DNA from: a virus
Length of the DNA: 64,000 bases
IMG/VR virus record: IMGVR_UViG_3300017987_000006
Span: 114,260-178,259 of that record
Reading direction: 5' to 3' (one strand)
Positions within the stretch are counted from its first letter, which is position 1. Each line of letters starts with the position of its first letter. The notes under the pieces were generated by a model. That model worked only from the letters and a program-made list of their open reading frames with translations. It made no database searches and was not told where the DNA came from. Positions 10,461 to 30,937 of the stretch are shown piece by piece. Made by a program: the position numbers and the translations under genes.

Positions 10461-11338
10461 ATGCATACAAGACCCTGGCCTTTGTAGACGAGCTGGAGAA
10501 GCTGGCCCTCGCACCTTCGTTGGTCCAGCGGGCCCTACGGTCTGGTGTCGGCCGTGCTGTCGTCAGCAACGTCCCGAAGGTCTGGGGCTCTGGTTTCGGG
10601 CGCGCGGCAGCGGGAGCCCTGCCTGGGGCGGCCATAGGTGCTGTGGCAGACCCGCAGGACAGTGTTCGGGGGGCAGTCCTGGGCGGTCTTGCTGGAGCTG
10701 GAGCTGGCTATGCATCACCCCTGCTCACGGCTGGGGGTCGCGCTCGTGCTAGAGAGGCCCTGAAGCAGTGGGGCAGGGAACAGAAGCACTCCTTCGTTGG
10801 TGGTGAACTCCCCATCAAAAAAAGCATGAAGCCGGAAGAAATCGCGAAACTTCGATCTGCGGAGAAGGCCGGGCTGACTAGTCTGCCGGGCGTAGTCAAG
10901 GGGATGGCAAAGAGGCCGCTACAGACGATGAAGGCTGGTTGGCAACACGCTGGAGGTCTGGGCAAGGCTATGATCGTGGGGGATGTGGCGCTGCAGGCTC
11001 CGGGCCTTGTAGACCCAACCACCCCAGAAGGAACGGGGGAGAAGGCCCTGCGGATGCTCGGAGGGACAGCAGGATTTCTTGCCGGAGGAAAGCTGCCGAT
11101 GTTGGCTAGCCTGGCCCCCATGGCCGGGCTGGCGTACCTCGGCGGGAAGGCTGGTCGCGGGATCGATGTGTTGACAGGCGAGAGAGCAAAGAAAAAGAAG
11201 ATGATGACTGCGGCGCAGCAGGCCGAAGCCGACAAGTTTTTGCGGGTCAGGCCTACTACTGCTCTCGCTCAGCGGGAGGCGCGGAAACTCGTCCCGGCCG
11301 GGTACATCCCGGCTGGGTACGGACCGGGGGTTGTCTGA
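10457..11338 (+). CDS. Gly/Ala-rich protein with N-terminal DELEKLA tag
   Basis: This 293-residue protein begins MNAYKTLAFVDELEKLALAP, sharing the AFxDELEKhA signature with the products at 36853, 46524 and 56162. The tag is followed by glycine-zipper-like hydrophobic stretches (GAAIGAVADPQ, GAVLGGLAGAGAGYASPLL, GTAGFLAGGKLPMLA) separated by basic segments. Such composition suits a membrane-active or DNA-ejection virion protein, by inference. It sits immediately upstream of the portal, overlapping its ATG by one base. Confidence 0.65.
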   Translation: MNAYKTLAFVDELEKLALAPSLVQRALRSGVGRAVVSNVPKVWGSGFGRAAAGALPGAAIGAVADPQDSVRGAVLGGLAGAGAGYASPLLTAGGRARAREALKQWGREQKHSFVGGELPIKKSMKPEEIAKLRSAEKAGLTSLPGVVKGMAKRPLQTMKAGWQHAGGLGKAMIVGDVALQAPGLVDPTTPEGTGEKALRMLGGTAGFLAGGKLPMLASLAPMAGLAYLGGKAGRGIDVLTGERAKKKKMMTAAQQAEADKFLRVRPTTALAQREARKLVPAGYIPAGYGPGVV

Positions 11339-12513
11339 TGGACCTCGGAACAGTTGGCGCTACACGCTTCTCCAGATCTCGCGGCAGGATAACTGGATCT
11401 GGAACCAGCGGCATCAGCTATCCGAGCCCGTTCTTCGATATCGGGCATACGTACCTGCCCACCACCGTCAAGCAGATGTTCAGGTGGTGTCGGTACTACT
11501 TTTTAGTTCACCCGCTGATCAACTCGATCATCTTCAAGATGGCCCAGTATCCGATCACGGACCTGGTCTATCACACCGACGATCCGCACTTGAAGGACCG
11601 GTGGAGGGAGATCTTCGAGGACGTTCTCAAGTACCGCTGCTTCCAGATGGAGATCGGTCTCGACTTCAACACGTACGGCAACGGGTTTGTCTCAATGTTC
11701 TTTCCGTTCCGGAAGATCATTGAGTGCACGAACTGTCATAACAGCGAGGCCGCAAAGGACGCCAGGTACTACTTCCGCAACTTCCAGTTCTATTGGAAGT
11801 GCCCACGCTGTGGGCACCACGGGCCGACCAAGGTCTATGATCGGTACATCAAGTCGACGCGGGGAATCCGCCTCTTGAGGTGGAACCCGGAGGACATCGA
11901 CGTTCGATACAACGATCTGAACGGCCAGTACACCTACTTCTACGACATTCCCGTGAAGTTGAAGAACGACATCATCATGGGGCGGAGACATATCGTGGAG
12001 GAGGTGCCGCAGGTCTTCATCGAAGCGCTTCGACGGAAGAAGGCTATCGTCTTCAACAACGACAACATCTACCACTTCCGACGCCCGACACTGGCTGGCA
12101 AAGATCGAGGGTGGGGAATCCCATTGATCTTGCCGGTGCTGAAGGACGCCTTCTACCTGCAAATACTGAAAAAATCTCAAGAATGTGTGTCTTTAACCAG
12201 CGAGCTGGAGACATCGGGCGGGCTGGTGCAGGCGGACGATGTTAGGGTTGGGGACCTCGTGAGAACTCATACGGGCGCGTGGAAATCCGTGGAGAAGAAG
12301 TGGTATCGGGACGCCCGAGAAGAAGAGGTCGGCAGGAAGATCACTCTCACGAGTCTTCGTGGGTATCCGACAACGTATTCTCCACAACATCCAATCTTTA
12401 CGATCCGCAGAAACGGGATTAATAGACGGACGGACACGAGAGAAGCTCCACGCTCCTCAATAATTTTGAGCAGGCCGCATCTTTATGAGGAGGTCCTTTG
12501 TCCGGCAGAGTAG
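11338..12513 (+). CDS. Portal protein, N-terminal part plus N-half of intein (ends at in-frame TAG)
   Basis: Residues 1-282 are the N-terminal half of a portal protein, the dodecameric ring through which DNA enters the head. The segment includes HPLINSIIFKMAQYPITD, a four-Cys zinc ribbon (CTNC and CPRC, about residues 122-160), and GWGIPLILPVLKDAFYLQ, as in portals of large myoviruses. At 12184 an intein starts after KKSQE (CVSLTSELET). The frame meets TAG at 12511-12513, but the intein and portal continue in the same frame directly downstream. Genes here normally use TAG as a true stop. The full portal therefore needs readthrough, suppression, trans-splicing, or correction of a sequencing error. 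Confidence 0.75.
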   Translation: MDLGTVGATRFSRSRGRITGSGTSGISYPSPFFDIGHTYLPTTVKQMFRWCRYYFLVHPLINSIIFKMAQYPITDLVYHTDDPHLKDRWREIFEDVLKYRCFQMEIGLDFNTYGNGFVSMFFPFRKIIECTNCHNSEAAKDARYYFRNFQFYWKCPRCGHHGPTKVYDRYIKSTRGIRLLRWNPEDIDVRYNDLNGQYTYFYDIPVKLKNDIIMGRRHIVEEVPQVFIEALRRKKAIVFNNDNIYHFRRPTLAGKDRGWGIPLILPVLKDAFYLQILKKSQECVSLTSELETSGGLVQADDVRVGDLVRTHTGAWKSVEKKWYRDAREEEVGRKITLTSLRGYPTTYSPQHPIFTIRRNGINRRTDTREAPRSSIILSRPHLYEEVLCPAE

Positions 12514-13464
12514 TTGGGTATCGGGGAGTACGTCCTCTATCCGCGGTATCTCCCCGTGCAGGAGACAACCTACGTTGACGTTGCTTTAAGGACCGGGTTG
12601 GTGAGTACTGACGGGTTCGTCTATAGTGGGTGCTGTGAGGACACCGCTGTCGCTTTCGAATCTTTGGAGCGGGGAGAAAGGGTACCACACGACAACCCGG
12701 GGCGAGTAGCGAAGAGGGCGATTCGTGATGGGCGCACTCCGAAGAGAATGCCCAGGATCATTCCCATGACGGACGACCTGGCTTACATCCTCGGTTGGTA
12801 TGCTGGTGATGGGAGCTGCAATGCCAGAAGTGTATTTTTCAGCCTTGGGAAAGGGGATGATTCCCTTTCTCTCATCGGGGCTATTCAGCGAGAGTTCGGG
12901 GTTACACCCACCGTGGAGGAGGGAAAATCTGTGAACACGGTGGTACTGTCCGACGTCATCGTACGTCATTTGATCAAGGGCCTAGTACCCGGGACAGCTC
13001 GACATAAAAAAGCCCCAGAAGAGGTGCTCAACGCCCCAAACAGCATGAAACTTTCATACCTGCGTGGGTTGTGGGAGGCAGACGGGTCAGCAGGCGAAAA
13101 GAGTATATGCATCACCTCCACCAGTCGAAACCAAGCATATGACGTATATAGGATCGCGATCCATGTTGGCTGTATCGCTTCCATCGGAAAATCGAAGCCG
13201 AGCGTTAGCGTAATTGATGGAAGAGAGGTACGAAGCAAAGGATCGTACAATGTGACCGTATGCAATGCGTCGGCCGATCGTCTGCGTTCTTTGTGGGAGT
13301 GCGGGGAGGGCCCTGATATTACATCAGGGAAAAGCGGGTTCTTTTGGGGTGACTACTTTGCCACCAGGATCTGCGCAATTGAAGAGGTTGAGGAGGCACA
13401 GTATATAGACTTCAAGGTAGCCGATGACACCACGTTCTGTGTCCCGGGTACGGCCACAAAGAAT
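12184..13464 (+). other. Intein with LAGLIDADG endonuclease in portal gene, carrying an amber codon
   Basis: The insert is 1281 nt. It starts with Cys after KKSQE, has a block-B-like YSPQHPIFT, and two LAGLIDADG-type motifs (LAYILGWYAGDGS and LSYLRGLWEADGS). It ends VPGTATKN before Ser of the extein (SIALDHIVPL). The penultimate residue is Lys instead of His, and the terminal Asn is present. The TAG at 12511 sits between the N-terminal splicing domain and the region leading into the endonuclease (PAE-stop-LGIGEYVLYP). Natural split inteins are divided in a comparable place. Confidence 0.88.
12511..12513 (+). other. In-frame amber codon inside portal intein
   Basis: The codons read GAG TAG TTG GGT ATC GGG with homology continuing through on both sides. 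A perfect AGGAGGT lies at 12488-12494. The TTG immediately after the stop (12514) is in frame but 19 nt from that site. One base change from CAG, AAG or GAG would create the stop. Confidence 0.85.
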
Positions 13465-14652
13465 AGCATTGCGCTCGATCATATCGTCCCACTTCGCGTG
13501 ATGTTCCCGCAGACCGGCTCGGCAACCGCCGACCCATTCTCGATGGTCAACCTCTCGGAATGGAAAGATCAAATCGCTGAGGAGATTCAGCGTTGGAGGC
13601 TCGATAATAACTACATTCCGATCCTCCCGCTCCCCATCGGTAATCAGACCATCGGAGGCGATGGTCGGGCGTTGTTGCTCGGGCAAGAGATCAGAGTGTG
13701 GTCGGAGCAGATCGTCACCGGGCTGGGGATCCCAATCGAGCTCATCTTCGGCGGCCTGTCCTACAGCGGTAGCAATGTATCGCTGCGTATGCTCGAGAAC
13801 ATGTTCATCAACTATATGCACGATCATATCGACCTGACGAAGTGGGTGGTGCGTAAGATCTCTTCTTACATGGACTGGCCATCGATAACGATCAAGTTCA
13901 AGCCGTTCAAGATGGCGGACGACTTGCAGCGTAAGGCGTTCAACCTGCAGCTCTCCCAGGTCGGAAAAATCTCTGACGATTCCCTGCTGTCTGATGCAGA
14001 TTTCGATCCGGACCACGAGGACAAACAGATCGAGAACGAGACCAACCGGCGAGCGGAGGCACAGAAAAAGGCCAGGCTGGCGCAGGCCGAGATCGAAGGC
14101 GCGAGTCAAATGATCATGATGCGCTATCAGATGAAGGCGCAGCAAGAACAGATGCAGATGCAGATGCAGGGAGCTCCGGCTCCCGGGGAGCCGGGAGCAG
14201 AGGCGCACGGCGTCGCGGAGGAGAGTGGGATGCAGCCGCAGCAGCCCCCGCCAGAGCAAGGTGGACCTGGGACTGCTCCGCTTCCTCAACAGATGATGGC
14301 TGCGCAGGCGCTGCCACCAATTCCGGCCCAGGCCCGCGCCGAGCTACCGCCAGCAATGTCGGAGATGGAGTCACCGCTGAACATGGCGCAGCAAGTGGGT
14401 CAGGTTAATCAAGACCAGGCTGGCCAGATGAACGTGGATCTCATAGCGCAAGCTCAGATGGTGGCGGGGCAGCTGATGCGGATGGACGAGAACAGCCGGA
14501 CGATGGTGCTGATGAACTTGAGACAGCAGTCGCCTGAGTTCTACCAGGTCGTGTTGGGGCTAATGCAGAGCATGGTGGCCGGCGGCCCCACCGCAGAACC
14601 GCCGCCCGAGCAGCAGGCTCCACAGCGGGGCCGCGAGGCCGCCGCAGTCTAG
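12514..14652 (+). CDS. Portal protein, C-half of intein plus C-terminal portal
   Basis: This frame continues the portal gene after the TAG; TTG 12514 is the first possible start. Residues 1-317 are the endonuclease and C-terminal splicing part of the intein. After TKN the portal resumes at Ser (SIALDHIVPLRVMFPQTGSA). It contains GLGIPIELIFGGLSYSGSNV and FINYMHDHIDLTKWV, which match the clip and stem regions of large-myovirus portals. The last 180 residues are Gln/Pro/Met-rich low-complexity sequence. Its stop overlaps the stop of the convergent leftward gene (shared CTAG at 14649-14652), with no terminator between them. Confidence 0.78.
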   Translation: MGIGEYVLYPRYLPVQETTYVDVALRTGLVSTDGFVYSGCCEDTAVAFESLERGERVPHDNPGRVAKRAIRDGRTPKRMPRIIPMTDDLAYILGWYAGDGSCNARSVFFSLGKGDDSLSLIGAIQREFGVTPTVEEGKSVNTVVLSDVIVRHLIKGLVPGTARHKKAPEEVLNAPNSMKLSYLRGLWEADGSAGEKSICITSTSRNQAYDVYRIAIHVGCIASIGKSKPSVSVIDGREVRSKGSYNVTVCNASADRLRSLWECGEGPDITSGKSGFFWGDYFATRICAIEEVEEAQYIDFKVADDTTFCVPGTATKNSIALDHIVPLRVMFPQTGSATADPFSMVNLSEWKDQIAEEIQRWRLDNNYIPILPLPIGNQTIGGDGRALLLGQEIRVWSEQIVTGLGIPIELIFGGLSYSGSNVSLRMLENMFINYMHDHIDLTKWVVRKISSYMDWPSITIKFKPFKMADDLQRKAFNLQLSQVGKISDDSLLSDADFDPDHEDKQIENETNRRAEAQKKARLAQAEIEGASQMIMMRYQMKAQQEQMQMQMQGAPAPGEPGAEAHGVAEESGMQPQQPPPEQGGPGTAPLPQQMMAAQALPPIPAQARAELPPAMSEMESPLNMAQQVGQVNQDQAGQMNVDLIAQAQMVAGQLMRMDENSRTMVLMNLRQQSPEFYQVVLGLMQSMVAGGPTAEPPPEQQAPQRGREAAAV

Positions 14653-15297: not shown

Positions 15298-15428
15298 CAG
15301 TCATCCTCGTCGTCTGCATCTTCATTCTTGTCTTCGTCATCTTCGGCCTGCCCGCTATTCGGATCTAGCGCATCATCCAACCAGTCCTCCGCCTCTTTGA
15401 GCTGTGATTGATCTTCGTCTTCGGGCAT
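15297..15428 (-). CDS. Small very acidic protein
   Basis: This 43-residue protein begins MPEDEDQSQLKEAEDWLDDA and ends in a run of Asp/Glu. CAGGAGAAACC precedes the ATG, and a GGTATAAG-class promoter lies about 40 nt upstream. Such small acidic phage proteins often mimic DNA or bind host enzymes, but nothing in the sequence identifies a target. First gene of the leftward cassette opposite the RNA polymerase. Confidence 0.55.
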   Translation of the reverse strand: MPEDEDQSQLKEAEDWLDDALDPNSGQAEDDEDKNEDADDEDD

Positions 15429-15465
15429 GGTTTCTCCTGTGTAAAAGTTACTGACCATCTTAGTC

Positions 15466-15482
15466 TTCTTATATCGACGAAT
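15466..15482 (-). promoter_or_regulatory. GGTATAAG-class promoter (variant CGATATAAG)
   Basis: Read leftward, TTCGTCGATATAAGAAG lies about 40 nt before the acidic miniprotein. It matches the recurring element apart from GA for GG. The rightward sigma70-like promoter of the polymerase gene begins only 20 bp away, so the two are divergent. Confidence 0.5.
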
Positions 15483-15491
15483 TCGATTGTT

Positions 15492-15520
15492 TTGACTCGC
15501 AAAATGTGGGCTGCTATGAT
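15492..15520 (+). promoter_or_regulatory. Sigma70-like promoter of the RNA polymerase gene
   Basis: TTGACT and TATGAT are separated by exactly 17 nt, 28 nt before the polymerase start. This is one of the best sigma70 matches in the window and suggests the host polymerase transcribes the phage polymerase gene. Confidence 0.7.
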
Positions 15521-15547
15521 CTTCGTCGTATACACAGGAGTCATCTA

Positions 15548-18500
15548 ATGGCGAGGCTCGCACCTGAAGAGGGGTTCGCCCTCCTCAAAGACCAGGTAGC
15601 GGAGACTGTCAAGGAGATCTTCCCGATCAAGGGAACCAAACACACTCTCCGCCTGGACGACATCGAAGTCAAAGACAACAAGGACATCGAGGACATCCGC
15701 TCCCAAAAGAAGGCGCGGCTAGAAGGCCGCACCTGGTCCGTTCCGGTCAACGGTAAGTTGTCTCTCGTTGATAACAAGACCGGGAAGGTGGTCGATCGGC
15801 GGACTCAGAGGATCATGAGCTTGCCCAAGGTGACCAACAGGCACTCCTACATCGTGGATGGTCAGGAGTACCAGATGGACAACCAGTGGCAGCTCAAGCC
15901 CGGCGTCTATTCCAGGCGTGATGAGAGGGGCGAGCTGGAGTCCATGTTCAACCTGAAGGGTAAGCACGCCTTCAAGGTGAAGTTCGACCCAAAGACAGCC
16001 AAGTTCTCCATGCTCAAGGGGACCACCAACGTTCCGCTCTACCCCATTATGCGCGAGCTCGGGGTGACGGACGAGGACCTCGAAAAGTCGTGGGGCAAGC
16101 AGATCTTGCAGTCCAACAAGGTCAAGTCTTCAGACGCTGCGCTCGAGCGGTTCTACAAAGCCGTAAACAGAGAAAAGCCCTCGGACCCGCGCCAGGCCAG
16201 GGAGTTTTTGCAGGAGTTCATGGACGGGGCGAAGATGGACCCCGACGTCGCCCGCATCACGTTGGGCGATAAGCATGACACTGTCGGCGGAAAGACGATC
16301 CAGCTCGCCTCGCAGAAGCTGTTGGGCATCAGCCGCGGTGACGTGAAACCAGATGCACGCGACAGCCTGATGTTCAAGAACTTCCGCTCGACAGAGGACT
16401 TCGCACGCGAAGCGCTTCAGACCAGGAGTGGAGAGATCTTACGGCGCGTCGGAAATAACCTGGACCGGAAAGGAAAGATCCAGGAGATCGTCGGGCCGGA
16501 CATTTTCAACCGTCCCATCAATGCGCTGTTCAAGAAGGCCAACCTGTCCAACCGACCAGACCAGACCAACCCGCTAGAAATGATCTCCGGAGCGATGAAG
16601 ACGACGATCATGGGTGAGGGTGGTATCACGAGCGAGCATAAGATCACTGAGGATGCAAAGCTCATCGATCCTTCCCACCTCGGTTTTCTCGATCCGATCC
16701 ATACTCCTGAATCGGCGCGAACAGGCGTGTCGTTGCATCTTCCTCTTGGGGCGCGAAAGAAGGGGAACAAGCTCGTCACCAAGATGTACAACATCAAGAC
16801 GGGTAAGATGGAGGATGTCGATCCCGAGACGGCGTACAACGCCAATATCGTCTTGCCAGATCAGGTGAAGTGGAGGGATGGAAAGCCCGTCCCAATCGGC
16901 AAGACCGTCAAGTTCAGCGGCCAGGAAAACGAAATCACAACGGGCAGTATGAAGGGGGCGGACTACGTAATGCCGGCCCCGGCACAGCTCTTCTCTGTCG
17001 CCTCCAATATGATCCCCTTCCTTCAGAACGACTCCGGGAACAGGGCAACGTACGCCAGCAAGCAGATGGAGCAGGCCATCCCACTGAAGCATCGAGAGTC
17101 TCCGTTGGTGCAGACCGTCATCGCCGCAGGGAAGAAAGAGACCAGCCTCAACAAGTTCATGGGGAAGATCAATTCCCATACGACTCCAATTGATGGAGAG
17201 GTTGTGCAGGTCAAAAGCGATAGCGTGGTGATCAAGGGAGCGGACGGGAAGCGCAAGGAGGTTCAGACTTACGACCACTTCCCGTTGAATGACGACAAGA
17301 GCTTCTTGCACTCGACGCCGCTGGTGAAGGTTGGCGATAAGGTCAAGAAGGGGCAGACCGTAGCCGACACGAATTTTACCAAAAAGGGAGATCTGGCACT
17401 CGGATCGAACTTGACGACGGCGTATGTCCCGTTCCACGGGTACAACTACGAAGATGGTGTGGTGATCTCCGAGTCCGGGGCGAAGCAGCTCACGAGCGAG
17501 CACATGCACCGTAAGGGCCTGGACGTCGGCAAGGAGCACACGCTCAGCAAGGACGCGTTCCTCAAGCACTACGGGATGACGCTCAAAAAAGACCAAGCTG
17601 ACAAGCTGGACGACGCGGGCGTGATCAAAAAGGGACAGAGGGTTGGTCCGGGAGACACCCTGGTAGCGGCCTTGCGGCATCGGGAAGAGACGGACGAGGA
17701 CAAGATCCGTAGGCGGATGCACAAGTCGTTGGTCAAACCATACGACAACGTCTCCGTCACCTGGGACAACGATCATCCAGGCGTCGTGACGAACGTGGTG
17801 AAGCGAGGCAAACGCGCAGAGGTTCATGTCAGGACTGAGGAGCCGGCGGAAATCGGCGATAAGATCAGCGGCAGGCATGGGGACAAGGGCATTATCACCC
17901 GCATCGTCCCAGATCACGAGATGCCCACAACCAAGGACGGGAAGCGTGTTCATCTGGCGCTGAACCCGGCGGGGGTTGCTGGACGTATCAATTTGGGACA
18001 GGTCCTTGAGGCAGCGGCCGGGAAGATCGCCGAGAAGACTGGAAAGCCATACCGCGTGCAGAATTTTGACGGCACTGAGGATATGACCGAGCGTGTCCAG
18101 AAAGAGCTCAAAGAGCACGGTCTGTCCGACAAGGAAGAGCTCATCGACCCCAAGACCGGCAAGACGATGGGGAGGGCTTTGGTGGGGCCGCGGTACATGC
18201 ACAAGCTTAGACACCAGGTCGGAAAGAAGCTCGTAGCCCGTGCTGGAGGACCGGACTACGCCTACGATATGAATCGCATTCCGAAGCGTGGCGGTCCGCA
18301 CGGGGCGCAGGCGTTGGACTCTTTGGGGGTCTACGCGATGTTGGCTTCCGGAGCCAAGGCGAATCTTCGTGAGATGCAGACTTACAAGAGCAACGCGGAG
18401 AACAACGATGAGCTGTGGTCTGCGGTTCAGACTGGAGATCCACTCCCAGCTCCCAGGCCCTCATTCGCCTACAACAAGTTCGTCGGCATGCTCAAGACTA

Positions 18501-21500
18501 TCGGCGTCAACACGGTCAAGCAAGGCAACACACTGAACCTGATGCCGCTGACGGACAAGCAAGTCAGGGAGATGAGTGAGGGTAGGACGATCAAGGACGC
18601 CGGGAAGATGGTCCTCGGGAAGAACCTCAAAGAGGAGAAGGGAGGCATCTTCGATAAGGACGCGACGGGCGGGCTGAACGGGACCAAGTGGTCCCATATC
18701 GAGCTGCCCGAGCGGATGCCGAATCCGATCTTCGAGAAGGCCATTGTCAGCCTCACCGGCATCAAGAAAAAAGATCTCGGCGCGCTGATGGACGGCAGCA
18801 AGGCCCTCAACACCAAGACGGGTCAGTTCACGTCGCCGGAGGAAGGGGTCTCGGCGGGAAAGGCTGTCGAGCACCTGCTGAAAAAGATCGATGTGGACGC
18901 GGAGCTCGCCTCCGCACAAAAGCAGATCCAAAACCCAAGCCTGAAAGGAGACAGGCTGGACAAGGTTAACAAGAAGATCAAATATCTGCGCTCGTTGAAG
19001 AAGCTGGGAATGACGCCGACGGAGGCGTACATGACCAAGACCGTGCCTGTCCTCCCGCCATCCATGCGTCCTCTGGCCGTGCGCCCCAACGGAGAGCTCG
19101 GTGTCGAAGATCTGAATGGGATGTACAAAGGTCTTGGCATCGCCATCAACAAGATGAAGGATGCCAGCCCGCTGCAGCTACCGGAAAAGATCAACAAGAG
19201 ACGAGCGGCGATCTATGATGCGATGAAGGGTCTGGCCGGGACTGGGGGGTACCTCAACCGAGACTACCGCGGGGTACTCGACATCATCGCCGGGAAGAAA
19301 GCGCAGGGTCCGGAGGGAAAGCCTGGGAGTCCGCGGGAGAGTTACTTCCAGTCCAAGTTGATCAAACGGAAGCAAGATCTGTCGATGCGGTCCACCATCA
19401 TCCCCGAGCCTGAGCTCGGCCTGGATGAGGTTGGGATCCCTCGCAAGGCTGCGATGGAAATGTACAAGCCGTTCATCGTCAGGGAGTTGGGGAACTTTGC
19501 TGGGCTGAGCCCACTGGCGGCGCAGCAAGCCATCAAGGACAGGGACCCGCTGGCCGCGCGTGCGCTGGAACGTGTGGTCAAAGAACGTCCGGTGATGTTG
19601 AAGCGCGATCCGGTCCTCCATAAGTACGGAGTACAAGCATTCAAGCCGGTGCTCACTAGCGGCAAGGCGATCAAGATCCATCCCCTGGTGACTGGCGGAT
19701 TCAACGCCGACTTTGACGGCAATTGTGTTGACGGCTGCTCCGAATTGGTGATAAGGTGTTCTGGTCTTGCGAGGGAGCACTTTATGAAATTCGGAGCAGA
19801 GTCTTTGACAGTGGCGAGAGATCCTGCGCTTGGGATCAATGCCGACCGTATTATGATCAAGAACTTTCCACGGGAGGAAGAACCACACAGGTACGATCGA
19901 AATGGCGCTGCCGTCTACCGTGTCCCGGACGGATTGCAGGTCCTTTCGTACGATCACTTCTTGGGTGAGTCGACGTTCGAGGACGTCACTGAGCTAACCA
20001 TCGAGGAGGACTGTCCTGTAGTCGAAGTGCGTTATGCGTCTGGACACAAGGTTACTGCTTCTACTAATGAGTCTTTGTGTGTCTATGACCACGAGACGGG
20101 AATGCTGCGCAAGGCACGGCCGGAGGAATCTGTAGGGGCACTAAGCCCTGTCATCTCGTCTCCTCCCGGTGATAAGCACGACAAGTTTTTCGGGTGGATG
20201 GTAGGCGCTTTTGTGTCTGATGGATTCTTCACCAACGGGCGCATCGGAATCACCAAAGTCGATGACGAGTTCCGCTCAACGTTTGGGGATGCTCTAAGAA
20301 CGTTCGGCGATGTGTACGCAAGCAACACATACCGCAGAGAAAAAAAGGCACCGACCGATTTCTCAGAGCATAGCGTCAAAGATCACTACACCGTGGGGGG
20401 AGAGATCAAAGACCTGTTCATGAGGTGCTACACCGTAGAGTACAGATCTTATCTACGGGATGGAACGCGGAGCGGCGAATTAAAGAATAAGCGGGCAGCA
20501 CTATACAAGCGCCTACCACAGGACATCGGCGACTATTCCAGAGATGCCTTGCTCGGTGTATTGTCCGGCTTGTTGGATGGGGATGGGACACTTTCCTGGA
20601 GCAGGTCTAAAACGAAGGAGCAGTTCCTGGCTTCGTATTCCACCAGCTCCCACCAGCTGATGGAAGACGTCCGATATTTGTGTCACTTGCTAAATGTTCG
20701 CTGCTCTGTGTCACCAGTCTACCCCCGTGCGAATAGGGCGCAGAGGCACATCAACTATGTCATCTCATTCAGCACCGTAGATATTGAGAAGCTGGCTGGG
20801 GAGTTGCGCCTCGCTGCTTACTCGGATACGTTGATCAAACTGGCAGCGAACCCGCTGTCCAAGGATGATCGGGACGTGGTTCCTGTGCCGATATCGATCT
20901 TACGCGGCATGATCAGTAAGAAGAGTGTGGTGTTCAAAAAAGACCCAAAGCTCTGTAGATCGCTGGCTACGTTGGCGTCAAAAAATAAGAGACGTCCGAG
21001 GGTCTCCAGAGACACGGCGCTCAGAATGGTCCCCTATCTGAATTTGGAAAACGCACTGGAAGCATATTGGTCATCCTTAGTGAAATCTGATGTCCGATGG
21101 TCTTACGTGAAAGAAGTCGAAGATAAGGGAAAGACGACCGTATACGATTTGGTCGTGCCTACTACCAAGATCTTCGCGGTCAATGGTGGGCTGGTGGTGT
21201 GGGACACCATGGCGGCATTCGTTCCTCTGACCTCCGAGGCGGTGGACGAGGCGCGGAAGATGTATCCATCCAGGAACCTTTTCAGTCCCGCTACCGGAAG
21301 CTTGATGTACAAGCCGACGAAGGAGAGTCAACTTGGGCTCTACAAGCTGACCCAGCAGGGCAAGCGGACGGACAAGGCGTTCAAGACCGTGGCCGAAGCT
21401 GCGAGGGCTGCCTCAGCAGGATCCGTGGGGATGACTGATGTGGTCAAGATTGGCGGACAGCAGACCACCATTGGGCGCGCTCTGGTAGCCAACGCGCTAC

Positions 21501-23248
21501 CTCAATCCATGCGCGGCGGTGTGATGAGCGGGAAGACCCCACTGGACGGGAAGGGGCAGACGGAGCTGCTGACTCGCTTGGCGAAAGATCACAAGGGGTC
21601 ATTCGGCGAAGTCGTCAACAAGATCAAAGACCTCGGAAACAGCTACGCCACGCAGACCGCTTCTTCGCTTGGCCTCGAAGATCTCCGCGCCGACAAGAAG
21701 CTGCGGGACCGCATCCTAAAGTCCGCGGACGCCAAGGTGAAGGAGATCATGTCGGGGAAGGGGACGAAGGAGCAAAAGCAGAAGAAGGCGATCCAGATCT
21801 ACGACAAAGCATCGGAGGCAATGATCAAGGCTGCCGAAATCGACCACGCCAAAAACCCTACTGAGCTATTTCAAATGTTGAAGGCGGGGATCAAACCGCA
21901 GATGGGCGCGTACCGTCAAATCACCATGGCTCCGATGCTGATGATGAACGCCAAGGGCAAGGTCATTCCAGATCCAATCCGCAAGTCCTACTCTGAGGGC
22001 ATCGATGTGGGCGACTACTGGACGCAGATGTCCGGGGCGCGCAAGGGCGTTGTACAGAAGGTCCAGTCTGTCCAGGAGCCTGGGTACTTTACCAAGCAGG
22101 TAATCAACTCGGTGATGAACAACGCCATCGGGGAGCAGGACTGCGGGACCAAGAAGGGGATCACACTCCCTATAGAAGAGCGCGACGTGCTAGATCGATA
22201 CCTGGCAAAGGACACCAAGTCAGGACGCAAGACCTTCAAGGCAGGGACCTTGATCACTCCCGGTGTTCGCGACAGTCTCAGGAACAACCGCGTCGGCCGT
22301 GTCGTCGTTCGTTCTCCGCTCCGATGTGAGCACAGCGGAACGGGGATTTGTGCTCGGTGTTATGGTAACGATGAGGATGGGGCTCCCCCACCCACCGGCC
22401 GGAACGTCGGCATCATCAGCGCCCAAGCCATCGGCGAGCGGGCAACTCAGCTCGCCATGCGGACCTTCCACGAAGGCGGGGTGGCCCCTGTCGGCGCGGC
22501 GGGGAAGCAGAAGGCCGCACTGACGGACGAGTTCAACCGGGTGCAGCAGCTCGTTCAGATGCACCAGAACATCCCTGGGTCTGCTCCTCTCAGCTCAGTC
22601 AACGGGAGGATAACCAAGATCCAAAAAGATCCTGCTGGCGGGAGCAACGTGTTCATCTCGGCGGGAGATAAAGAAGTACGCCACTATGTCCCACAAAACC
22701 GGGGCGAGCCGCTGACGTTTGTGGGGGACAGGGCCAGAAAGCTGACGCGTGGTATGCAGATCCAAAAGGGTGCTCCCCTCTCGGCCGGTCCGATAAACCC
22801 GAACGAGCTGTTGCCCCTGGCGGGAGTGAACAAGGTGCAGGGATACCTGGCCGGACAGATGTACGATCTGTACAAGCAGCAGGGGATACGTCGGAGGAAC
22901 ATCGAGACCGTCGTCAAGAGTATGACGAACCTGACCAAGGTTTCTGACCCGGGCGGACAGTCGGACTTCATTCGAGGCGACTTCGCCCCTACGTCCAAGC
23001 TCCAAGCGCTCAACAAGAAGCTGGTCGCGCAGGGAAAGAAGCCTATCGCACACAGGCCGGTGTTGAAGGGGGTCAAAACGTTGCCGCTCGACATGCAGAC
23101 AGACTGGATGGCAAGATTGAACCATGAGCAGCTTGCTGGTACAGTCGTCGATGCGGCGAACCAAGGATGGAGCAGCAATATCCACGGAGAGCATCCGATC
23201 CCAGCGCTTGCCTACGCAGCTGAATTCGGAAAGAAGAAACCATACTAG
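15548..23248 (+). CDS. Single-chain RNA polymerase, fused beta-beta' subunits, with intein
   Basis: This 2566-residue protein combines both large subunits of a bacterial-type RNA polymerase. The beta part (about 1-1000) has GDKISGRHGDKGIITRIVP, LNPAGVAGRINLGQ and the C-terminal YMHKLRHQVGKK and LREMQTYKSNAEN segments. The beta' part includes VLPPSMRPL, RPVMLKRDPVLHKYGVQAF, the catalytic NADFDG, the bridge-helix region GARKGVVQKV, zinc ligands (EQDCG; CEHSGTGICARC) and the trigger-loop start AMRTFHEGG. The N-terminal beta' zinc ribbon is missing. An intein (19724-21205) interrupts the catalytic motif; the spliced product would be 2072 residues. ATG 15548 follows ACAGGAG. No alpha, omega or sigma gene is seen in the window. 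Confidence 0.93.
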   Translation: MARLAPEEGFALLKDQVAETVKEIFPIKGTKHTLRLDDIEVKDNKDIEDIRSQKKARLEGRTWSVPVNGKLSLVDNKTGKVVDRRTQRIMSLPKVTNRHSYIVDGQEYQMDNQWQLKPGVYSRRDERGELESMFNLKGKHAFKVKFDPKTAKFSMLKGTTNVPLYPIMRELGVTDEDLEKSWGKQILQSNKVKSSDAALERFYKAVNREKPSDPRQAREFLQEFMDGAKMDPDVARITLGDKHDTVGGKTIQLASQKLLGISRGDVKPDARDSLMFKNFRSTEDFAREALQTRSGEILRRVGNNLDRKGKIQEIVGPDIFNRPINALFKKANLSNRPDQTNPLEMISGAMKTTIMGEGGITSEHKITEDAKLIDPSHLGFLDPIHTPESARTGVSLHLPLGARKKGNKLVTKMYNIKTGKMEDVDPETAYNANIVLPDQVKWRDGKPVPIGKTVKFSGQENEITTGSMKGADYVMPAPAQLFSVASNMIPFLQNDSGNRATYASKQMEQAIPLKHRESPLVQTVIAAGKKETSLNKFMGKINSHTTPIDGEVVQVKSDSVVIKGADGKRKEVQTYDHFPLNDDKSFLHSTPLVKVGDKVKKGQTVADTNFTKKGDLALGSNLTTAYVPFHGYNYEDGVVISESGAKQLTSEHMHRKGLDVGKEHTLSKDAFLKHYGMTLKKDQADKLDDAGVIKKGQRVGPGDTLVAALRHREETDEDKIRRRMHKSLVKPYDNVSVTWDNDHPGVVTNVVKRGKRAEVHVRTEEPAEIGDKISGRHGDKGIITRIVPDHEMPTTKDGKRVHLALNPAGVAGRINLGQVLEAAAGKIAEKTGKPYRVQNFDGTEDMTERVQKELKEHGLSDKEELIDPKTGKTMGRALVGPRYMHKLRHQVGKKLVARAGGPDYAYDMNRIPKRGGPHGAQALDSLGVYAMLASGAKANLREMQTYKSNAENNDELWSAVQTGDPLPAPRPSFAYNKFVGMLKTIGVNTVKQGNTLNLMPLTDKQVREMSEGRTIKDAGKMVLGKNLKEEKGGIFDKDATGGLNGTKWSHIELPERMPNPIFEKAIVSLTGIKKKDLGALMDGSKALNTKTGQFTSPEEGVSAGKAVEHLLKKIDVDAELASAQKQIQNPSLKGDRLDKVNKKIKYLRSLKKLGMTPTEAYMTKTVPVLPPSMRPLAVRPNGELGVEDLNGMYKGLGIAINKMKDASPLQLPEKINKRRAAIYDAMKGLAGTGGYLNRDYRGVLDIIAGKKAQGPEGKPGSPRESYFQSKLIKRKQDLSMRSTIIPEPELGLDEVGIPRKAAMEMYKPFIVRELGNFAGLSPLAAQQAIKDRDPLAARALERVVKERPVMLKRDPVLHKYGVQAFKPVLTSGKAIKIHPLVTGGFNADFDGNCVDGCSELVIRCSGLAREHFMKFGAESLTVARDPALGINADRIMIKNFPREEEPHRYDRNGAAVYRVPDGLQVLSYDHFLGESTFEDVTELTIEEDCPVVEVRYASGHKVTASTNESLCVYDHETGMLRKARPEESVGALSPVISSPPGDKHDKFFGWMVGAFVSDGFFTNGRIGITKVDDEFRSTFGDALRTFGDVYASNTYRREKKAPTDFSEHSVKDHYTVGGEIKDLFMRCYTVEYRSYLRDGTRSGELKNKRAALYKRLPQDIGDYSRDALLGVLSGLLDGDGTLSWSRSKTKEQFLASYSTSSHQLMEDVRYLCHLLNVRCSVSPVYPRANRAQRHINYVISFSTVDIEKLAGELRLAAYSDTLIKLAANPLSKDDRDVVPVPISILRGMISKKSVVFKKDPKLCRSLATLASKNKRRPRVSRDTALRMVPYLNLENALEAYWSSLVKSDVRWSYVKEVEDKGKTTVYDLVVPTTKIFAVNGGLVVWDTMAAFVPLTSEAVDEARKMYPSRNLFSPATGSLMYKPTKESQLGLYKLTQQGKRTDKAFKTVAEAARAASAGSVGMTDVVKIGGQQTTIGRALVANALPQSMRGGVMSGKTPLDGKGQTELLTRLAKDHKGSFGEVVNKIKDLGNSYATQTASSLGLEDLRADKKLRDRILKSADAKVKEIMSGKGTKEQKQKKAIQIYDKASEAMIKAAEIDHAKNPTELFQMLKAGIKPQMGAYRQITMAPMLMMNAKGKVIPDPIRKSYSEGIDVGDYWTQMSGARKGVVQKVQSVQEPGYFTKQVINSVMNNAIGEQDCGTKKGITLPIEERDVLDRYLAKDTKSGRKTFKAGTLITPGVRDSLRNNRVGRVVVRSPLRCEHSGTGICARCYGNDEDGAPPPTGRNVGIISAQAIGERATQLAMRTFHEGGVAPVGAAGKQKAALTDEFNRVQQLVQMHQNIPGSAPLSSVNGRITKIQKDPAGGSNVFISAGDKEVRHYVPQNRGEPLTFVGDRARKLTRGMQIQKGAPLSAGPINPNELLPLAGVNKVQGYLAGQMYDLYKQQGIRRRNIETVVKSMTNLTKVSDPGGQSDFIRGDFAPTSKLQALNKKLVAQGKKPIAHRPVLKGVKTLPLDMQTDWMARLNHEQLAGTVVDAANQGWSSNIHGEHPIPALAYAAEFGKKKPY
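19724..21205 (+). other. Large intein with LAGLIDADG endonuclease at the RNAP active site
   Basis: The insert spans polymerase residues 1393-1886 (494 aa), starting CVDGCSELVIRC after NADFDGN and ending GGLVVWD before TMAAFVPL. Two LAGLIDADG-like motifs (GWMVGAFVSDGF and LLGVLSGLLDGDG) mark a homing endonuclease. The block-B His appears replaced by Glu (VTASTNESL), the penultimate His by Trp, and the terminal Asn by Asp. Cys1 and a Thr at +1 remain. The boundaries follow alignment to standard block F (VYDLVVPTTKIFAVNGG). Confidence 0.85.
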
Positions 23249-23257
23249 GAGACCGAG

Positions 23258-23638
23258 ATGAATCAAGAACACATGACCAAGATGGCGACGGCGTTCCTCA
23301 GCGAGCTGTCAGAAATCGAGAAGCAGGGCTTTGCCCCGCTCCGCTTCCTGGCCGGTGGTGTGCGCCGACTTGGGGTCGGCATGGCCAACGTTGGCCGGCA
23401 GGGTGGATTCCTCGGTGCCATTGGAGGAGCAGGGGCTCGCCGCGCTGGGGGGGTAAGCAGACACATCAAGCAGATCTATCGATCTGGCGCAAAGCCCGTC
23501 GCAGTGAAAGGCGTCGAAGGCGGTGGCAATATGTTCGGCGGGCTGAAGGCCCTCGCTCGATCACCATACGGCCAGATGGCAGCAGTCCCGGCGTTGGCCG
23601 CGGGCGGGCTGTACGCCGGCAAGAAGCTGTTGGGGTGA
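23258..23638 (+). CDS. Small Gly-rich protein with EIEKQG tag
   Basis: This 126-residue basic, Gly/Ala-rich protein begins MNQEHMTKMATAFLSELSEI then EKQGF, a variant of the AFxDELEKhA tag. Glycine-zipper-like runs (GGFLGAIGGAGARRAGG; AAVPALAAGGLYAG) follow. AGGAGACCGAG precedes the ATG, only 9 nt after the polymerase stop. A minor virion or membrane-associated role is inferred from the tag and composition. Confidence 0.6.
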   Translation: MNQEHMTKMATAFLSELSEIEKQGFAPLRFLAGGVRRLGVGMANVGRQGGFLGAIGGAGARRAGGVSRHIKQIYRSGAKPVAVKGVEGGGNMFGGLKALARSPYGQMAAVPALAAGGLYAGKKLLG

Positions 23639-29044: not shown

Positions 29045-29059
29045 AATGGACCATTATTG

Positions 29060-30937
29060 ATGCTTGTCGACCTTGCCAAAAAACGCCGTATCGAGGCCAA
29101 CAGGATCGTCCCTGTGTCTTATGTGGCCCAGGTCGGGGCCGATGGTAAGACCTACTCTGAGCCGTACCTCGATTACGCTGACGGCCCAGATGGAGAATAC
29201 GGGGCCGGGGAAGAGGAGTACTACGACTTCGATGATGAGCCTCGTGACCCAACCGCAGAGGAGTTCGCGGCAGGTAACTTTATCTACAATGTGTCCCCGT
29301 CCGAGTTCACAGAGACGGCAATCAAGATCGCTACCAGCGGCAAGGCGTCTAACTTCTCCTTCACCGAGCGCCCCTACCTGGCCCGCATCTACAACACTAA
29401 CTCCCCGAGAACATTACTAAAATTCGCGCGACAGACTGAAAAGAGCACGACGCTCGGCAACAAAATGATCTGCTACGCCTGTTTGATCAACCACTTTCGG
29501 GCGCTCTATGTAGCGCCGTCGGCGGAGCAGGCCAAGACGTTTTCCAATGACCGTATCGCAGATGTGATCAATCTGTCTCCGTTAGTCAAGGCGTACACCA
29601 ACACATATCTGACCAACGCAGTCTTCCAGAAGAAGTTCATCAACTACTCCAACATCCGACTCCGTTACGCCTACTTAACGGCCGACCGTGTGAGAGGAAT
29701 CCCTGCGGACAAGATCGATATTGACGAGCTGCAGGACATCCTGGTCGACAACATTCCCGTCATCGAGGAGTGTGCATCGCACTCGGAGTGGAAGATCTTC
29801 ACCTATTCCGGGACGCCCAAGTCGCTTGACAACACCATCGAGCACTACTGGTCAAACTTCTCCACGCAGAACGAGTGGGTCGTTCCCTGTGATCGTCACG
29901 GTACGCCAAATAATCCTTCGTCGTGGCACTGGAATATTTTAGACGAGGACAACATCGGCAAGGATGGACTCGTCTGCGACAGGTGCCACGAGCCCATCGA
30001 CCCGAACCATCCGATGGCGCAGTGGGCCGCCATGCAGCCGATGACGGACGCCAACAAGGACAAGGTTACCTACGAGGGGTACCGCATTCCTCAGATCATG
30101 GTGCCGTGGATCTTGAACAAAAAGGACGGCTGGGCAAGCGTCCTGGAGAGACAGGAGCGGTACAGCCGGCAGAAGTTCTACAACGAGGTCCTAGGTATCA
30201 GCTATGATTCAGGAACACGTCCCATTACCAAGGCACAGCTCAAAGCGTGCTGTAGGCCGGAGATTAGACCTGGAGACTACGAGCACTTCAGGTCTGTCAC
30301 CGCGGGAACTGAGGTCTTCGCTGGATTGGATTGGGGTACGGGAGAGCAATCCTACACAGTGATCTCCCTTGGCGCATACATGGGAACTGGCAACTTTACG
30401 ATCTTTTGGATCCATCGCTTCACCGGAAAAGACCTGGAGCCTCCGGCACAGCTAGATCGTATCTGTACGATCTTAACCCAGTTCAATGTCAAGCTGTGTG
30501 GCTGTGACTACGGCGGCGGGTTTGATCGCAACGATCACCTCATCAGAGCCTTTGGCCCGCAGAAGGTGTTCAAGTTTCAATACAACAATAACCAAAAGAA
30601 GGGGAAGGTGTACTGGGAGGAACGCCTGCGAAGATTCGCTGTGCACCGCACAGAGGTGATGAGCGATGTATTCGGGGCGCTGGTAAGGAAGCAGATCGAC
30701 CTGCCGAACTGGGATGACTTCATAGAGCCGTACGGTCAGGACATCTTGAATATCTTCAGCGAGTACAATGAGACGACCAGGATGACCAAGTTCAACCACG
30801 CGCCGGGAACGACGGACGATTCGTTCCACTCGATCTTGTACTGCTTCCTCGCCTCTATGATCAGATTCCCGCGCCCAGACATTATGGCCGAGATGCAGGA
30901 CACAGGGGAAGACGACTATCCAAAGCGGAGGCGGTAG
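29060..30937 (+). CDS. terL: Terminase large subunit
   Basis: This 625-residue packaging motor starts at ATG 29060 (a TTG sits just before). The ATPase domain has a Walker A-like RQTEKSTT near residue 124, with Glu where Gly is usual, and Walker B KIDIDELQD near residue 220. The coupling motif is TYSGTPKS. The C-terminal nuclease has the RNase H-like FAGLDWGTGEQSYTV, then CGCDYGGGFDRND, and a last Asp in TTDDSFHS. A CDRH plus CDRC zinc-binding insert lies near residues 275-315. There is no clear Shine-Dalgarno sequence. The enzyme cuts concatemeric DNA and drives it through the portal. Confidence 0.9.
   Translation: MLVDLAKKRRIEANRIVPVSYVAQVGADGKTYSEPYLDYADGPDGEYGAGEEEYYDFDDEPRDPTAEEFAAGNFIYNVSPSEFTETAIKIATSGKASNFSFTERPYLARIYNTNSPRTLLKFARQTEKSTTLGNKMICYACLINHFRALYVAPSAEQAKTFSNDRIADVINLSPLVKAYTNTYLTNAVFQKKFINYSNIRLRYAYLTADRVRGIPADKIDIDELQDILVDNIPVIEECASHSEWKIFTYSGTPKSLDNTIEHYWSNFSTQNEWVVPCDRHGTPNNPSSWHWNILDEDNIGKDGLVCDRCHEPIDPNHPMAQWAAMQPMTDANKDKVTYEGYRIPQIMVPWILNKKDGWASVLERQERYSRQKFYNEVLGISYDSGTRPITKAQLKACCRPEIRPGDYEHFRSVTAGTEVFAGLDWGTGEQSYTVISLGAYMGTGNFTIFWIHRFTGKDLEPPAQLDRICTILTQFNVKLCGCDYGGGFDRNDHLIRAFGPQKVFKFQYNNNQKKGKVYWEERLRRFAVHRTEVMSDVFGALVRKQIDLPNWDDFIEPYGQDILNIFSEYNETTRMTKFNHAPGTTDDSFHSILYCFLASMIRFPRPDIMAEMQDTGEDDYPKRRR

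Follow-up and report, generated by a model that had tools for sequence, protein, structure and literature searches.

The open reading frame at positions 15548 to 23248 (plus strand) of the window, the 64-kb stretch of DNA analyzed here and the last part of a 178-kb genome record, encodes a single-chain beta-beta' RNA polymerase precursor of 2566 amino acids whose catalytic loop is interrupted by an intein. The explanation we favor, with considerable confidence, is that this precursor is inactive as translated and is spliced to a phage-owned, one-chain polymerase that would work with a phage sigma-like factor. Sequence comparison establishes the fusion, the double-psi-barrel core with its bacterial motifs, the loss of a zinc ribbon, the placement of the intein within the catalytic loop, and the conservation of a sigma-like gene in these phages.

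The frame is uninterrupted from its ATG at 15548, which is preceded by AGGAG and opens an MARL start common to this protein and its relatives, to the stop at 23246-23248. The same gene, intein included, recurs in contigs L003 (100% identical) and L004 (99.9%), one of the copies being cut at its start, so the window's frame contains neither a frameshift nor an assembly join. A first-pass annotation of this DNA had read a single frame passing from beta straight into beta', and this is borne out by the 2566 open codons, by Pfam domains in the expected order, and by the 2 further copies, with no frameshift or stop between the parts. The beta part (residues 1-988, 15548..18511, placed by alignment to bacterial beta ends) carries Rpb2_3 and Rpb2_6 (E 1.5e-61) up to about residue 902, and Rpb1_1, Rpb1_2, Rpb1_3, and Rpb1_5 follow in order from about residue 1117, the Rpb1_1 and Rpb1_3 matches scoring under the curated Pfam cut-offs. 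Downstream of the intein, the rest of beta' (21206..23245, Rpb1_3 and Rpb1_5; here and below on the plus strand) includes the F and G regions, a zinc site CEHSGTGICARC (22325-22360), the start of the trigger loop (22409-22480), and the C-terminal anchor. The protein therefore has the double-psi barrel domains of beta and beta', with their conserved motifs, that are expected of a two-barrel RNA polymerase, and every bacterial-like motif quoted in the first-pass annotation is found in it. The profile searches and structure prediction proposed there come down on the same side: NCBIfam models of fused beta/beta' and solved bacterial polymerase chains match the window protein, and for L005, an intein-free relative, the fused core modeled with AF2 (pLDDT 84) has cellular RNA polymerase chains or complexes as all of its 50 best PDB matches (E about 1e-43). 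Terminase and portal-like genes in the same window agree with the assignment to a phage. The chain had also been called complete, which holds in that full beta and beta' are fused, but what is encoded is a precursor with an intein, overlooked at the time, at the catalytic triad.

In alignments with bacterial subunits, the C-terminal anchor of beta, SFAYNKFVGMLKTIGVN, abuts the start of beta', LNLMPLTDKQVREMSEG (18512..18583), without a long linker. The beta' N-terminal zinc ribbon, already noted as missing, is absent from its place at 18644..18706, where GIFDKDATGG-LNGTKWSHIEL of the window aligns with bacterial GLFxxRIFGP-(zinc ribbon)-RMGHIEL, and in all fused phage members compared it is likewise exchanged for a few residues. 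The other beta' zinc site (CEH..C..C) has in turn lost its cysteines to replacement in the fused members L013 and L015, which indicates that even that beta' zinc is dispensable.

A profile-derived scan of IMG/VR recovered at least 555 relatives of the window polymerase, and in most of the best 80 of these loci a single frame encodes the entire chain, about 2050-2200 residues long. The beta-beta' fusion is not an isolated case: it is present in at least 70 IMG/VR contigs and is the rule across a large phage lineage. In the isolates Salmonella phage Arash and Vibrio phage D69, the fused gene takes in beta and the beginning of beta', and the remainder of beta' is a second gene. In a tree of the phages and 20 bacteria including Campylobacterota, with no archaeal rows, the phages make up one side of a branch with support of 100, so that the phylogeny earlier called for places the polymerase outside the sampled bacterial diversity; the row nearest to the window is the intein-free L005, and the 2 branches are equal (0.18 and 0.18). 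Natural fusions of rpoB and rpoC occur in a few bacteria, Helicobacter and Wolbachia among them, with beta and beta' likewise in a single chain, and the NCBIfam models of such fusions match the window protein. That a phage recently captured one of these genes, from which the window's also differs in having no long linker, is nonetheless hardly credible given the position of the phage clade in the tree and the missing zinc ribbon in all fused phage members compared.

No match to alpha (RNA_pol_L) occurs anywhere in the genome record, which extends to the whole record an absence first reported for the window. The reported absence of a sigma gene from the window also stands, but a sigma-like gene that had escaped notice lies elsewhere in the same record, at about G000:62319-63110, with Sigma70_r3 over the cut-off and weak matches to regions 2 and 4. 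All of the phage records tested that have a fused-type polymerase (13 of 13) contain a homologue, the one in Arash being annotated as a sigma factor, and none was found in Carin-5, where beta and beta' are encoded separately. With this conserved gene at hand, the unidentified phage specificity factor suggested by the first-pass annotation need not be invoked. The sequence GGTATAAG is enriched in the window (9 sites against 0.45 expected) and is a possible phage promoter element; 8 of the 9 sites are on the minus strand, many of them at 53-61 kb.

The mReC phages (Weinheimer and Aylward 2020, PMC7481178) are tailed phages whose beta and beta' can be aligned with cellular enzymes and fall separately from bacteria. 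That set comprises 97 contigs, with reported capsid family PF07068 and terminase family PF03237, and the text describes beta and beta' subunits with no mention of fusion, inteins, or sigma in mReC phages. The window phage resembles them in having a beta/beta' clade apart from the cellular ones, here in a tree with bacteria only and no archaeal rows. The fused-polymerase phages differ in their markers: a GpA-type terminase large subunit (29057..30937 in the window, plus strand) marks the lineage, with GpA (PF05876) in 13 of 13 related records and PF03237 not found here, and the Gp23-like capsid PF07068 has no match in G000 or in any of 16 related records, whereas it is detected in Carin-5, RHph, and, weakly, EP_H11. 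By these markers, the absence of the Gp23 capsid and the presence of the GpA terminase would set the fused-polymerase phages apart from the mReC group as described in PMC7481178. The single-chain polymerases of crAss-like phages also combine beta-like and beta'-like parts, but by the authors' own statement are too divergent for the beta/beta' profiles used in PMC7481178, profiles of a type that the window protein matches strongly. YonO (PMC5467207) is likewise a single chain with an aspartate triad, but it is about 100 kDa with few shared residues, whereas the window encodes a complete beta plus beta'. The phiKZ-like polymerases (PMC7598289) are also phage-owned and of multisubunit type, but theirs are split into several polypeptides where the window's is fused.

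The intein (19724..21205) comprises 494 residues, Cys1 to Asp494 (1393-1886 of the precursor), and interrupts the catalytic loop as NADFDGN/C...WD/TM. It matches Pfam Intein_splicing and LAGLIDADG_3, and its AF2 model, a HINT domain with a LAGLIDADG endonuclease, resembles PI-PfuI, TliVMA, and PI-SceI (Foldseek E about 1e-15 to 1e-11), with pLDDT <50 at the intein ends, so that the splicing center cannot be read from the model. Both endonuclease motifs, GAFVSDGFF (20204-20230) and GLLDGDGTL (20567-20593), retain their acidic residue. Compared with PDB chains and with cultured phages, the intein sequence gave no match. At the same point, intein-free relatives read NADFDGD-[T/A/Q/K/S] in 75 of 75 distinct sequences, and this identical junction argues for splicing to a functional polymerase. 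Tests for a class 1 intein found an in-frame insert, empty sites in relatives, a HINT fold, Cys1, and Thr+1. Residues usual in inteins are changed in the window: the block-B His is Glu (ASTNESL, 20057..20077), the penultimate His is Trp, and the terminal Asn is Asp (VVWD followed by Thr+1 at 21206-21208; 21194..21208). Their loss may argue against splicing, the block-B His being the most conserved intein residue, but exceptions to each of the 3 have been described, and inteins ending in Asp or Gln and the class 2 KlbA intein demonstrate that departures from the terminal Asn, His G:6, and Cys1 are compatible with splicing (PMC4031507).

Here, by comparison, a whole site-specific family has Asp ends. 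A DNA pattern and further scans place at least 20 distinct inteins at this catalytic site, and they sort into 3 subfamilies. Subfamily I (the window, L023/L189, L029, L082/L083, and L229) has Asn at -1, Cys1, a block B of S-x-N-E, a W-D end, and Thr+1. Subfamily II (L022, L024, L025, L028, L085/L087, L191, L205, L210, L235, L237, and L241) has Asp at -1, Cys or Ser as residue 1, mostly S-x-D-H, a W-D, Y-D, or Q-D end, and Thr or Cys at +1. Subfamily III (L192, L194, L195, and L196, with the partial L198 and L199 as probable members) has Asp at -1, Gln or Glu as residue 1, an S-N end, and Thr+1. In L192, L194, L195, and L196, this first residue leaves no N-terminal nucleophile, which makes a new class-2-like splicing route possible, and KlbA, with Ala1 and Cys+1, is unlike them. 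Known RNA polymerase inteins, in archaeal rPol A' and A'', eukaryotic RPB2, and others (PMC1635734), similarly sit at conserved positions in one of the two largest subunits, but the window's family lies directly after NADFDG[D/N] and before Thr, with an Asp end and a block-B Glu. Inteins read elsewhere in the same polymerase proteins have the canonical Asn end, and such canonical inteins (in L105, L099, and L025) are placed at the zinc site, where the trigger loop begins, and in the beta loop GRHGNKGIIT. Two candidates for the catalytic site were rejected: a pattern match in L027 reads NADFDGDC-IAVYVP with no intein, and a supposed split intein in Arash proved to be a gene break downstream of an intact AADYDGD through which gp206 reads.

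Members of the family bear on its mobility and its splicing. The inteins of L085 and L087 share 98.7% DNA identity between exteins of 75-78% identity on both sides, with abrupt edges at both junctions, a contrast that points to recent homing. L229 has a 290-aa mini-intein that has no endonuclease and retains all splicing blocks, and L029 has lost its endonuclease in part and likewise retains them, which suggests that splicing is under selection. In L197, a subfamily II intein is inserted 2 codons downstream (NADFDGDAM/S...WD/S), and the normal NADFDGDAMSVYLP results only if the terminal Asp is excised as part of the intein, which supports canonical boundaries.

The residue on the N-terminal side of the window's intein presents a paradox. 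The catalytic motif NADFDG-N (19703..19723) ends in Asn 1392 (19721-19723), whose counterpart in E. coli beta' is residue 464, the third catalytic Asp, so that the triad as encoded is DFDG-N followed by the intein. In the extein alignment, all 4 carriers of subfamily I have N in this column and the rest of the sequences have D (93 of 93), and L229, added afterwards, is a fifth subfamily I case with N. The window, L029, and L082 belong to 3 separate extein clades, each adjoining relatives with Asp, which indicates that the Asn travels with the element. Together with L082 and L029, the window retains about 130 of 132 near-invariant columns, the third Asp being their common departure, and no column of the extein alignment sets subfamily I apart in a way that would compensate for the Asn. 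These retained columns, and the equal branches to the window and L005, argue that polymerase function has been kept.

Canonical splicing would leave NADFDGN, and the most likely outcome in our judgment, although we give it not quite an even chance, is that the mature site is D-D-N and that the phage tolerates its weakened hold on metal. Standing against this is that we found no precedent for Asn in the catalytic triad, and that a YonO mutant is dead, in this case with all 3 Asp changed to Asn (PMC5467207). Next in order, though doubtful, is that splicing in subfamily I restores the catalytic Asp, either by a junction shifted by one residue (NADFDG-D-TM) or by conversion of Asn to Asp. The residue to the left of the insert tracks the intein subfamily (N in all 5 of subfamily I), all members of subfamilies I and II at the site have D to its right, the Asn has moved with its element across 3 clades whose neighbors have Asp, and no compensating column was found; the D...D arrangement of subfamily II would be an intermediate in which a shift of the junction is neutral. 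Yet a shifted junction would require chemistry without a known counterpart, with Asp at +1 and Asn as intein residue 1, and L197 shows that an intein of a related subfamily takes its terminal Asp away with it. In subfamily III the last intein residue is Asn, and the catalytic Asp is therefore the left one. A shift common to all members is weakened by the same L197 and subfamily III inteins. That splicing itself delivers the third Asp in subfamily I, by shift or conversion, and that the polymerase becomes competent only through the splicing reaction, is a little more doubtful still.

Decay of the element appears unlikely by the same comparisons. If the intein were degenerate and the phage polymerase dead or being lost, replacement of the 3 usual splicing residues and of the third catalytic Asp would be expected, but those replacements are conserved in 5 divergent members, one of which (L229) has a stable mini-intein, the exteins keep their invariant residues, all 2566 codons are open, and evolution is no faster; we consider this reading improbable. 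Slightly less probable again is that the insert stays and regulates the polymerase, or that the chain is cut without joining and works as 2 pieces. HINT domains can cleave without ligating, and beta' is naturally divided between 2 genes in Arash and D69, but in both phages the break comes after the catalytic loop and not within it, and a 494-aa domain left in the metal loop would be expected to obstruct the active center. Removal of the insert as an RNA intron has in its favor the group I intron that interrupts the same gene in Vibrio phage D181; a scan with Rfam found no intron match in 15300-23400 of the window, and the insert keeps its frame open and has the blocks and fold of a HINT domain, so that we give this very little credence.

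If the precursor is spliced to a one-chain polymerase, as we favor, it would be inactive at first because 494 residues follow the second catalytic Asp. The HINT domain would fold, form a thioester at Cys1, transfer it to Thr+1, and cyclize the terminal Asp, and the intein would thereby excise itself and join the polymerase halves by ligation. The mature chain, which has no alpha, could then assemble with the sigma-like protein, be directed to phage promoters, and transcribe phage genes. The endonuclease may meanwhile spread the element among related phages at the same codon, a catalytic site that a host presumably cannot lose.

A widespread phage lineage thus combines a bacterial-like polymerase in one chain and without alpha with a matching sigma-like gene, and it offers a small natural system in which to ask what portion of the cellular enzyme is needed. 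Its intein family has repeatedly settled at the most constrained residue of transcription, and the inteins of one subfamily accompany the change of an otherwise invariant Asp. Either a polymerase works with Asn among its three metal-binding residues, or the chemistry of protein splicing has a new form here.

Further mobile elements lie in and near these genes. The portal-like gene of the window (11338-14652) also bears an intein, which starts CVSLTSELET and ends ATKN before Ser and is broken by an in-frame TAG at 12511-12513; the TAG may be a nonsense change, a sequencing error, or a natural split. In L099, L005, and L085, the portal genes are continuous at 1439-1953 aa, larger than intein-free ones, with up to about 3 inteins. 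In Vibrio phage D181 (L016 21494-21774), the group I intron (RF00028, E 1e-26) lies in the beta part of the polymerase gene and is followed by a homing endonuclease, and D69 has the same gene region without this interruption.
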